Of a DNA stretch of 64,000 nt, positions 2,974 through 44,709 are shown piece by piece (the first letter of the stretch is position 1; every line of letters starts with the position of its first letter). This DNA is from Acidimicrobiales bacterium (GTDB lineage: Bacteria > Actinomycetota > Acidimicrobiia > Acidimicrobiales > UBA8592), in the NCBI GenBank assembly GCA_030740795.1, contig JASLWO010000068.1, forward strand, positions 1 through 64,000, written 5' to 3'. A program made the position numbers and the translations under genes. A model generated the notes under the pieces. That model made no database searches. It was given only the letters and a program-made list of their open reading frames with translations, and was not told where the DNA came from.

Positions 2974-4089
2974 ATGAAATTGGCAACGAAACTAACTTCG
3001 GTGATGCTAGCCATCGTATTAGTGCCGGCTTTAAGCATTGCCTGCTCTAGCTCAAACAAAAACAGTCATGAGACAAAGCCTGAATGTTTAGAAAATGGAG
3101 ATTCCACAGCAATAACCACAACTGAATTGGATAAGGCGAATGCGTCGGGAGAATCAATTGATTTAGTCGTTTACGATGCTTTTCTTGCTCCTGCTGGCGC
3201 ATTTGAGAGCTTTACACAAGAGACTGGGATCGCTGTAAATATTCTCACAACAGCAGATACAGGGACAATGGTGTCCCAAGCCGTCCTTACTTCCGGTAAT
3301 CCAATTGGAGATGTAATGTTCGGTGTAGATAACACATTCCTTTGCCGAGCATTGCTGAACAAAGTATTTACACCATACGAACCATCCACGTGGAATCAAT
3401 TAGACAATGATTTGAAATTAGATCAATTCGCGCGGGTTATTCCTGTTGATTATGGAGATATTTGCCTAAATTATTGGATAGATCAAGAAGAAATTCAGCC
3501 GGAAAGCATTAAAGATTTGACGCTAGAAAAATTTGCTGGAACTTTAGTAGTACAGAATCCAGAAACTTCAGCACCGGGTATGGGTTTTCTATTAGCTTCC
3601 ATAGCGATCTTTGGTGAGAATGATTGGGAACAATTCTGGGACGACCTCCGAAAGAACGACGTAGCAGTAAGATCAGGTTGGACTGAAGCATATTACGAAG
3701 ACTTCTATAACGGTGAACGAAAGATCGTGACAAGCTACGCGACGAGTCCTATAGCTGAGTATATTTTCGCTGATCCACCAGTTGAGAAACCGCCAACTGG
3801 AATTATAGAAGATTCTTGTTTCCGTTCCATAGAGTTTGCAGGTGTTCTGCGAGGAACGGATAGCCCGGTAGCTTCAGCTATGCTCATTGACTTTTTGACA
3901 TCAACTTATTTCCAAGAACTTATTCCAGAAACTAACTTCGTATTACCTGCTAATACTCATGCTAAATTGCCTGACACGTTCCTTAATTTCCTCCAAACTG
4001 ATGTCGAACCAGTGATGATTAGCCCTGATTTAATTGAGCGAAATAGAAACGATTGGACTGAGCGCTGGACACAGATCGTTCTTCGTTAG
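2974..4089 (+). CDS. thiB: Thiamine ABC transporter substrate-binding lipoprotein (ThiB-like)
   Basis: Lipoprotein signal (...SIACSSS), periplasmic binding protein architecture, C-terminus NDWTERWTQIVLR, downstream of TPP riboswitch. Confidence 0.85.
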   Translation: MKLATKLTSVMLAIVLVPALSIACSSSNKNSHETKPECLENGDSTAITTTELDKANASGESIDLVVYDAFLAPAGAFESFTQETGIAVNILTTADTGTMVSQAVLTSGNPIGDVMFGVDNTFLCRALLNKVFTPYEPSTWNQLDNDLKLDQFARVIPVDYGDICLNYWIDQEEIQPESIKDLTLEKFAGTLVVQNPETSAPGMGFLLASIAIFGENDWEQFWDDLRKNDVAVRSGWTEAYYEDFYNGERKIVTSYATSPIAEYIFADPPVEKPPTGIIEDSCFRSIEFAGVLRGTDSPVASAMLIDFLTSTYFQELIPETNFVLPANTHAKLPDTFLNFLQTDVEPVMISPDLIERNRNDWTERWTQIVLR

Positions 4090-24614: not shown

Positions 24615-24677
24615 AATCTGCTTCTAACAGCGAAGTAGTTCATGTTTAAGGTATTCTGTCTGTAGGTCATAAATTGA

Positions 24678-24842
24678 CTGCGGGAGAGTTCAACTATGTT
24701 GACGCCGAAGGAGCAAGGGTCCCTCCGAAACTCTCAGGCACAAGTACCGCAGAAAATAGGCCTATCTGGAAAGAACGTTGATTCGTTCACCGAAGGGGAA
24801 AGACTGAAAAGTCGAAGCTCTCAGGTACCGAGACAGAGGGGG
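24678..24842 (+). ncRNA. Tandem glycine riboswitch (two aptamers, ~24678-24752 and ~24761-24842)
   Basis: Aptamer 1: P1 CTGCGG/CCGCAG enclosing GGGAGAGTT...GCCGAAGGAGCAAG...AACTCTCAGGCA. Linker TCTGGAAAGAAC. Aptamer 2: CACCGAAGGGGAAA...GCTCTCAGGTA...GACAGAGGG. Directly upstream of gcvP. Confidence 0.93.
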
Positions 24843-41008: not shown

Positions 41009-43801
41009 ATGGCATCAGGTAACAGTGTTCCGTCAAATAGGTACGATGCTTCTTTGGCTAACGTAATTGAACTTAAATGGCAGAAACGCTGGGAAGACGA
41101 AGGCACATACCATACTCCAAATCCATCTGGCCCTTTGGCAAGTAGCTCCGACAGAATCAACTTACCTAAATTGTTCATTATGGATATGTTCCCTTATCCC
41201 TCTGGAACGGGACTTCATGTCGGGCATCCGTTAGGGTTCATCGGAACCGATGTATATGCCCGTTATAAACGGATGACTGGATACAACGTTCTACACACTA
41301 TGGGTTACGATGCTTTCGGTTTACCAGCTGAAGAACATGCCCGTCAGACAGGTCAACATCCTCGGGAAAACACAAACTCAAATATTGACAACATGCGTGG
41401 TCAATTACGACGACTAGGGCTGGGGCACGACCAACGAAGATCTGTTGCCACCACAGATCTAGATTACTACCGGTGGACTCAATGGATTTTCCTTCAACTA
41501 TTCAATTCGTGGTACGACCATGAACAAAATTGTGCTCGCCCCATATCAGAACTTGAAAAAGCTCTATCAAATGGCTCACGGGCATTAGAAAGTGGCATTC
41601 TTTGGGATGACTTAAGCAACCATGAAAAAAAGGAGTTAATCAATTCATTCCGATTGGCTTACCTTGATGAAGCTCCAGTCAATTGGTGTCCCGCGCTTGG
41701 AACCGTTCTCGCCAATGAAGAAGTAACAGCAGAAGGACGAAGTGAACGCGGAAACCATCTGGTATACCGGCGACCATTGAAACAATGGATGATGCGCATT
41801 ACTGCATATGCTGATCGACTCCTTGAGGACTTGGAGAATCTGGATTGGAGTGATGCCATAAAAACAATGCAACGAAACTGGATAGGCAAAAGCAAAGGTG
41901 CCGAAATCGTTTTCCCAATTTCGGGTGAAGAAATCAGTGTCTTTACTACTCGGCCAGACACACTTTTCGGAGCAACGTACATGGTTTTAGCTCCCGAACA
42001 TCCCCTTATCGAGAAAATATCAGCCACTTCATGGCCTGACGGAACACCCGAAAAATGGCTGCAGGGATTTTCTAACCCGCAAGCAGCTATAGAGTCATAC
42101 CAACAATTAGCAGCGCAGAAATCTGATCTAGACAGACAAGAGAACAAAGAGAAAACAGGAGTTTTTCTCGGCGTTTACGCCACAGTCCCAGTTAATAACA
42201 AAAAAATACCTGTTTTCATATCTGATTATGTACTCATGGGGTACGGCACGGGAGCCATTATGGCTGTCCCAGGGCAAGATGAACGAGATTGGGAGTTCGC
42301 TGAACTCTTTAACTTGGAGATCGTGAGGACAGTTGAACCTCCACCTTCTTGGGATGGGAAAGCTTTTCCTGGAGATGGTCCAGCGATAAACAGTGATTTC
42401 TTAAACGGTCTAGGAGTTGACGATGCGAAATCAAAAATCATAGATTGGCTCGTCACATCAGGAAACGGAACAAAGAAAACCACATACAAATTAAGGGATT
42501 GGTTATTTAGCCGCCAACGCTACTGGGGTGAACCATTTCCGATCGTGTATGGCGATGATGGGCTTCCCATCGGAGTTGATGAAAGTCACCTTCCAGTAGA
42601 ACTTCCAGACCTAATAGACTGGGCTCCAAGAAGCTTAGAAGAAAACAGTGAGCCAGAACCGCCTTTAGGACGCTCTGCCGGTTGGGGAACCATTGAACTA
42701 AACCTTGGGAACGGTTTGCAAACCTACAAGCGCGAGCTTAATACCATGCCTCAGTGGGCTGGGTCGTGCTGGTATTACCTTCGTTACCTTGACCCAACTA
42801 ATGATGATGATTTCGTTGCGGCCGATATTGAACAATACTGGATGTCAGGAGACGTTGGTGGGGTCGATCTTTACGTTGGAGGAGTTGAACATGCAGTCCT
42901 TCACCTCCTCTACAGTAGATTTTGGCATAAGGTCCTTTACGATTTGGGACATGTAAGCTCTCTAGAACCATTTCAACGTCTATACAATCAAGGCTACATT
43001 CAAGCAGCGGCGTATCAGGATACTAGAGGCATATATGTTGAAGCTGCTGAAGTGACGGAAGAAAATGGCGGATTCGTATATAAAAATGAACCGGTAACAC
43101 GTTCTTTCGGAAAAATGGGCAAATCACTCAAGAATTCTGTCACACCAGATGAGATGTACGATGAGTTCGGGGCTGACACACTACGCCTCTACGAAATGTT
43201 CATGGGACCCTTAGACCAAGATCGACCGTGGGAAACTAAATCTGTTGTCGGCTCACAGCGCTTAATTCAAAGAGTGTGGAGAAATCTGGTGGACGAAGAA
43301 ACAGGCAACCTAAATGTTTCTGACGAAGAAACCTCAAAAGAGTTACTCCAACTTCTACACCGAACTATTCAAGCCGTGAATGACGACATGGAGAACCTGA
43401 GATTTAATACAGCTATAGCCAGGATTACTGAATTAAATAATGAAATCACGAAAATTCCTACCAGCACACCTAGGAAAGTAGCGGAAACCTTAGTACTCCT
43501 TTTGTCACCGCTAGCACCCCATATAGCAGAAGAGTTATGGGAAAAACTCGGCAACGAAACTAGTGTTGTTTATGCCCCTTTCCCGGAAGCCGATAAGGCG
43601 TTCTTGATTGAAGACTCAATTGAAATTCCAATTCAAATAAATGGCAAAGTAAAAAGCAAGATAATTGTGCCAAGCGGATCCACAGTTGAAACGATCCGTG
43701 AAACCGCGTTACAGGACCCAAAAATTAATTCGATCCTGTCTGGAGAGAAGATTCGAAAGGAAATAATAATTGAGGGCAAACTTGTGAATTTTGTATTCTA
43801 G
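41009..43801 (+). CDS. leuS: Leucyl-tRNA synthetase
   Basis: MDMFPYPSGTGLHVGHPLGFIGTDVYARYKRMTGYNVLHTMGYDAFGLPAE; KMGKSLKNSVTPDE (KMSKS variant KMGKS). Confidence 0.98.
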   Translation: MASGNSVPSNRYDASLANVIELKWQKRWEDEGTYHTPNPSGPLASSSDRINLPKLFIMDMFPYPSGTGLHVGHPLGFIGTDVYARYKRMTGYNVLHTMGYDAFGLPAEEHARQTGQHPRENTNSNIDNMRGQLRRLGLGHDQRRSVATTDLDYYRWTQWIFLQLFNSWYDHEQNCARPISELEKALSNGSRALESGILWDDLSNHEKKELINSFRLAYLDEAPVNWCPALGTVLANEEVTAEGRSERGNHLVYRRPLKQWMMRITAYADRLLEDLENLDWSDAIKTMQRNWIGKSKGAEIVFPISGEEISVFTTRPDTLFGATYMVLAPEHPLIEKISATSWPDGTPEKWLQGFSNPQAAIESYQQLAAQKSDLDRQENKEKTGVFLGVYATVPVNNKKIPVFISDYVLMGYGTGAIMAVPGQDERDWEFAELFNLEIVRTVEPPPSWDGKAFPGDGPAINSDFLNGLGVDDAKSKIIDWLVTSGNGTKKTTYKLRDWLFSRQRYWGEPFPIVYGDDGLPIGVDESHLPVELPDLIDWAPRSLEENSEPEPPLGRSAGWGTIELNLGNGLQTYKRELNTMPQWAGSCWYYLRYLDPTNDDDFVAADIEQYWMSGDVGGVDLYVGGVEHAVLHLLYSRFWHKVLYDLGHVSSLEPFQRLYNQGYIQAAAYQDTRGIYVEAAEVTEENGGFVYKNEPVTRSFGKMGKSLKNSVTPDEMYDEFGADTLRLYEMFMGPLDQDRPWETKSVVGSQRLIQRVWRNLVDEETGNLNVSDEETSKELLQLLHRTIQAVNDDMENLRFNTAIARITELNNEITKIPTSTPRKVAETLVLLLSPLAPHIAEELWEKLGNETSVVYAPFPEADKAFLIEDSIEIPIQINGKVKSKIIVPSGSTVETIRETALQDPKINSILSGEKIRKEIIIEGKLVNFVF

Positions 43802-43833: not shown

Positions 43834-44709
43834 ATGGGAAGAGATGATAGATCTGGTTTATTCCTCGCATATCCAGGAATCGGAGAACGATTCGGTGACC
43901 TGTATGGTACTTTCTGGTGCGAAGGCAACCTGCCCCATGATTTGAAAGAAGCCGTGAGGCTTCGCAATGCGCAGTTAACAGATTGCGGATATTGAAAGAA
44001 TGTTAGATTTTCGCTCGCCCGTGAGGCGGGATTCACAGAAAAAGAAGCTTCTCGAATCAACGCTGGCCGGTTGCCAAACGACTTACCCAAACATTGGCTA
44101 CCAATACTTAAATTTACCGACCACTTCATAAACACTCCTTCTCCCCTGCCACACGAGCTTTTCGCAGAGATCACAGATATCTACACCAAAGCAGAAATAA
44201 CTGAAATAGCTCTCGGATTAGGACTTTTCCATGGATTTTCTAAAATGCTGATTGCACTAGGCCGGGAGCCCGTCGAAATGGATACTACAATCATTCCCAC
44301 ACCTACAGCTCCGATGACTAAATTAGAAATTCAAGTGCCTGATTCGCATCCAGTAGCTTCTCTTCTTTCACCCACTCCTGATCTAAGGGATCGTTGGATC
44401 GATCTTGAAAATACTCTTTGGAAGATGAACAATTATCCAAGGATGGAACTTGAAAAAATCCGTTCAAGATTGGCGACTTTATTAGATGTAAGTCTTGAAT
44501 ACGAAAATTTTTATCACAGTGGTGACTCATCTCGAGATTTGCAGAATATTTCGGATCAATTCGTTTTTGACATTCGCTCTTTCACGGATGAACAAAGGCG
44601 TGCGATCATTGACGAATTTGGGTCTGATGGCCTTTTAAATCTGATGATTTGCCTAGCGCTCTATGATGGAATTTTTAGAGTAGCCACAACCCTTGATTCA
44701 TGGCATTGA
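43834..44709 (+). CDS. AhpD/carboxymuconolactone decarboxylase-family selenoprotein; TGA at 43993-43995 read as Sec (CxxU)
   Basis: One reading frame: MGRDDRSGLFLAYPGIGERFGDLYGTFWCEGNLPHDLKEAVRLRNAQLTDCGY[TGA]KNVRFSLAREAGFTEKEASRINAGRLPNDLPKHW..., continuing into the listed ORF 44071-44709. Conserved AhpD/CMD motif RLRNAQL-x-x-C-x-x-C-x-N-x-R-F spans the TGA, which replaces the second Cys. Confidence 0.85.
44014..44030 (+). promoter_or_regulatory. Candidate bacterial SECIS hairpin
   Basis: CTCGCC-CGTGA-GGCGGG: 6-bp stem (one U-G) with 5-nt loop having G at position 2; loop starts 24 nt after the TGA codon. Confidence 0.7.

Follow-up and report, generated by a model that had tools for sequence, protein, structure and literature searches.

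The window analysed here is a stretch of 64,000 nucleotides from an Acidimicrobiales bacterium, and it carries a predicted CMD/AhpD-like selenoprotein gene on its forward strand (43834-44709), assigned on the basis of PF02627, the translation and homologs. The gene starts with ATG at 43834, ends with a terminal TGA at 44707-44709 and, when read through a further in-frame TGA at codon 54, encodes a product of 291 residues. This in-frame TGA (43993-43995, + strand) is the predicted Sec codon of a CGYU motif (Cys51-x-x-Sec54) and is conserved in homologs. Ordinary gene calling yields two pieces, a short ORF ahead of the TGA and, behind it, one of 212 aa that begins with TTG at 44071. Upstream lies an ORF at 41009-43801, which by eye reads as leuS.

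In the protein's carboxymuconolactone decarboxylase/AhpD domain, the active-site position is occupied by the CGYU motif. PF02627 scores 29.5 bits on the window protein, above its gathering score of 23, and the TIGR00778 AhpD core scores 20.1 bits, below the cut-off of 27.8. The protein also matches PA0269 and other AhpD-like structures. Two NCBIfam models of AhpD-related (seleno)proteins, NF053654 and NF041047, show weak similarity over the AhpD core, far below their curated cut-offs (14.7 bits versus 310 and 14.6 versus 110, respectively), and NF041238 gave no match at E values up to 1. An AlphaFold2 model in which Sec was modelled as Cys is all helical, with a pLDDT of 86.5. The top Foldseek match over both halves of this model is Sestrin2 (PDB 9lvj, 5dj4 and 5t0n), which spans both domains at a TM score by query of about 0.7; however, identity is 10-12% and the rmsd about 9 Å, and we claim a likeness of the two-domain fold, not a shared function. 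AhpD-like PA0269 covers about half of the model. The C-terminal half (44311-44706) is a second helical domain with no Pfam match, conserved in the genus and in the homologs L018 and L019. From the fold we infer an AhpD/CMD-like redox protein of the selenol/thiol type, with CGYU as its active site and an activity of the peroxidase kind; Sec and Cys51, as a CxxU redox centre, probably reduce peroxides or disulfides.

Relatives of the gene were found in 33 of 298 genomes of the order, nearly all with TGA in the matched frame, and in 15 of 20 genomes of the taxonomic family, all with TGA. Neighboring genomes bear the names of Acidimicrobiia, Acidimicrobiaceae, Acidimicrobiales or Candidatus Microthrix MAGs. 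Searches of the class and phylum, together with a scan of genome contigs, added relatives in other families, in other members of the class, in Gammaproteobacteria (many of them Pseudomonadales) and in Chloroflexota. The contig scan returned no match with a single protein as query and 26 loci with a closer alignment, and no relatives were found in viral contigs or plasmids. Homologs are 45-67% identical along the whole length and share the in-frame TGA, beyond which similarity continues unbroken. Within the protein family the Sec position is TGA in 60 distinct homologs (61 if L002, described below, is counted) and a Cys codon in seven, and the same TGA codon occurs in relatives from three phyla.

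Downstream of the TGA, a six-pair stem closes a five-nucleotide loop. The predicted 5' arm, CUCGCC (44014-44019, + strand), and 3' arm, GGCGGG (44025-44030, + strand), flank the apical loop CGUGA (44020-44024, + strand), in which the conserved G44021 and U44022 occupy loop positions 2 and 3. The pairs are C44014-G44030, U44015-G44029, C44016-G44028, G44017-C44027, C44018-G44026 and C44019-G44025, base for base those listed in an earlier note on this DNA, and the start given there, 43993, is the in-frame TGA itself. The spacing between UGA and loop is 24 nt (43996-44019). RNAfold returns exactly this hairpin on 43993-44034 and on 43990-44041, at -9.3 kcal/mol; on the longer stretch 43973-44050 the minimum free energy favors a shifted register, with 44018-44022 paired to 44026-44030. 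The fold of the window sequence was no better than chance against dinucleotide shuffles (z of -0.31, for 43993-44034, and 0.09), and because of this we do not accept single-sequence folding as proof of the hairpin. In a best-hairpin test with synonymous codons drawn at random, the copy in the window gave P=0.07 by itself. An Rfam search of the window at gathering scores returned no SECIS-type match; elsewhere in the window it placed a TPP riboswitch at 2880-2986 and a glycine riboswitch at 24671-24759, both above their gathering scores.

Comparison among homologs was more informative than folding of one sequence. We assembled 34 Sec homologs from Acidimicrobiia and Gammaproteobacteria, termed type I, which were chosen by the loop (CGUG 24 nt after UGA) and not by the stem, so that the invariance of their loop follows from how the set was chosen; Chloroflexota L096 and L098, which match the CGUG selection and do not have the type I stem, were left out. 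Standard pairs occupy 196 of the 204 stem cells of this set (96.1%). Codons drawn at random among synonyms, at each gene's own usage, gave 150.1 +/- 5.3 paired cells, with a maximum of 169 in 2000 draws. Both sides of the pair had changed in 24 cells as compared to 7.2 +/- 1.9 in shuffles, a count reached in 0/500 of them, which is not to be read as a probability since these shuffles leave relatedness in. Sliding the register destroys the pairing, and RNAalifold on the 34 homologs yields the same six pairs plus one outer pair. The synonymous-codon test at this fixed register was run after a per-gene test for the best hairpin anywhere, and we report both: against synonymous codons the latter fell below 0.05 in 24 of 64 Sec genes and in 0 of 7 Cys genes (Mann-Whitney p=0.08 for Sec versus Cys).

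Two of the pairs, 44019-44025 and 44016-44028, each join third codon positions, wobble to wobble, and both covary. The former is C-G in 22 homologs and U-A in 12 and is never broken (n=34); the latter is paired in 31 of 34 (C-G 19, U-A 8, G-C 3, A-U 1) and unpaired in three. Mismatches in the type I stem are A-A in L054 and L056 and C-U in L016. Pair 44019-44025 covaries alike whether the second codon specifies Glu (GAG/GAA), Val (GUG/GUA) or Ala (GCG/GCA), and therefore the protein does not explain the covariation. The residues encoded around the hairpin (LAREAG) are themselves conserved, and the claim of the earlier note that coding and structure constrain the same bases is borne out in the taxonomic family of the window, a set of 15 members chosen by neither loop nor stem: all 15 encode the loop Arg with CGU, whereas at each of the other invariant Arg columns of these genes five codons occur, with CGU once or twice. 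Since relatives have silent changes in one arm of the stem that are matched by silent changes in the other, we take it that the hairpin is real.

The stem was kept in none of the seven CxxC homologs (L024, L028, L064, L068, L070, L071 and L103), a small sample in which only one gene has as neighbors the type I relatives closer to the window, those of Gammaproteobacteria. In the type I register 14 of their 42 cells are paired, as compared to 15.4 expected from their own synonymous codons; in the register termed type II, introduced below, the figures are 22 of 49 and 23.4. A tree from which the hairpin-coded residues were excluded requires five or more changes for Cys and, for type I, three or more on supported branches, counts that give no direction of change. 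Two sisters joined with support of 100/92 differ in the stem: L064, with Cys, has none, and in L067, a type II Sec gene, it is intact. Supported pairs for an independent-pairs test were few (3 and 4) and almost all in the expected direction, short of significance.

The genome of the window encodes a complete Sec set. A tRNA-Sec with anticodon TCA scores 66.1 bits, selA (376.7 bits) adjoins selB (316.6 bits), and selD scores 360 bits and contains an in-frame TGA of its own. This selD gene (L113; G000:C26:2415-3335, - strand), probably itself a selenoprotein gene, has after its TGA a hairpin GCUCAC-GUC-GUGAGC. The earlier note had proposed a bSECIS-like hairpin and had suggested comparing Sec and Cys orthologs. 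Its reading is supported by conservation of the stem in Sec homologs, where compensatory and mostly silent changes maintain it and the loop G is conserved, by the Cys homologs, none of which forms the stem and which pair at chance level, and by the complete Sec machinery.

Very likely, in our view, this hairpin is a bSECIS (bacterial SECIS) element that directs decoding of UGA 43993 as Sec in an AhpD/CMD-like protein, with SelB binding and Sec insertion taken from established bSECIS biology. When the ribosome arrives at UGA 43993, the stem-loop 24 nt downstream would be bound by SelB together with GTP and Sec-tRNA-Sec. The SelB-bound hairpin would then cause UGA to be decoded as selenocysteine rather than as a stop, and the inserted Sec would work with Cys51 in the CxxU redox centre.

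Could the TGA instead be a genuine stop, an assembly error or the mark of a decayed gene, and the hairpin a by-product of the GC-rich conserved codons for LAREAG? The division of the locus by gene calling, the conservation of these residues and a single-sequence fold no better than shuffles would all agree with this. However, the same TGA codon recurs in relatives of three phyla, protein similarity runs on past it, synonymous draws fall well short of the observed pairing (169 at most versus 196), and selA, selB, selD and tRNA-Sec are present in the genome; on these grounds we rejected stop, assembly error and decay, which we regard as highly improbable. An equally slight chance attaches to a bSECIS element that works through the shifted register (44018-44022 with 44026-44030) or through a different local structure. 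Although the minimum free energy of 43973-44050 favors that register, the two pairs that covary, 44019-44025 and 44016-44028, are part of the six-pair stem described above, which is also the one, with an outer pair, that RNAalifold obtains from the 34 homologs, and slid versions lose pairing.

The least probable explanation, in our judgment, is that the stem is kept for some other purpose at the RNA level, such as ribosome pausing, mRNA stability or regulation of the downstream part. Covariation demonstrates selection on the RNA and not what the selection is for. Yet the stem goes with UGA, being present in Sec genes and at chance level in Cys genes, the sisters L067 (Sec, with the stem) and L064 (Cys, without it) differ in just this way, and loop and spacing agree with the published model (PMC13188914).

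bSECIS elements are best characterized in formate dehydrogenase mRNAs of E. coli. The loop CGUGA and the stem of the window are its own, and a likeness in sequence to the E. coli elements is not claimed. In the bSECIS model, one of the first two positions of the apical loop is a G, frequently with G or U next to it, and the loop lies 16-37 nt from UGA (PMC13188914); the same review notes that short coding bSECIS elements vary widely. The window shares with this consensus a stem-loop directly downstream of UGA within the coding region, a small apical loop with G at position 2 and then U, and a spacing of 24 nt that falls within 16-37. AhpD-like and CMD-like CxxU selenoproteins have been described in surveys of the Sargasso Sea (PMC1088965) and of GOS (PMC2398784). 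Likened by description, they share with the window's family a PF02627-type domain, Sec as the second residue of the CxxU pair, the existence of Cys homologs and a predicted bSECIS with a loop guanosine. The family of the window has a second, C-terminal helical domain. Since both the CxxU selenoproteins of the AhpD/CMD kind and the bSECIS consensus are already published, the element and gene of the window join a known kind. A literature search combining Acidimicrobi* with selenoprotein apparently returned nothing on this topic, as far as titles and the openings of abstracts reveal. The results add members from Acidimicrobiia (Actinomycetota) to the known selenoproteins of this kind, as well as an AhpD-like family of two domains, whose genes are broken at UGA by ordinary gene calling.

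The type II register was found in 24 further Sec genes, 23 of the protein family and L002. It consists of a seven-pair stem with a loop AGGU, GGUC or AGUU located 17 nt after UGA, and its stem is 99.4% paired, with four pairs showing double changes versus 0.9 in shuffles. UGA and loop are 24 nt apart in type I and 17 nt apart in type II, and a third, bulged form occurs in Chloroflexota. The peptides encoded differ with the register, LAREAG as compared to AVAKQQG or AGAKQQG. We place at about even the chances that repeated shifts of the bSECIS from one register to another took place inside a single CMD/AhpD selenoprotein family, each accompanied by a different encoded peptide, such that the RNA signal may dictate the residues that follow the active site and a change from Sec to Cys releases the constraint. 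This variation in register inside a single family could serve to probe the latitude of SelB recognition.

Several other hairpins were observed beside these. L002, also from the genome of the window, is another AhpD-like gene, with motif CHTU (TGA around 1549-1551; G000:C56; L050 about 3695-3697) and a hairpin UCUAGC-AGUU-GCUAGA 17 nt after UGA. Chloroflexota L096 and L098 have TGA and, at the type I loop position, CGUG; they fold into a bulged hairpin whose loop, CGUGGC, lies 17 nt after UGA. An AhpD-like family at a greater distance (L037-L040), with motif CFHU, has an in-frame TGA and, 20 nt after it, a stem with loop GUU.
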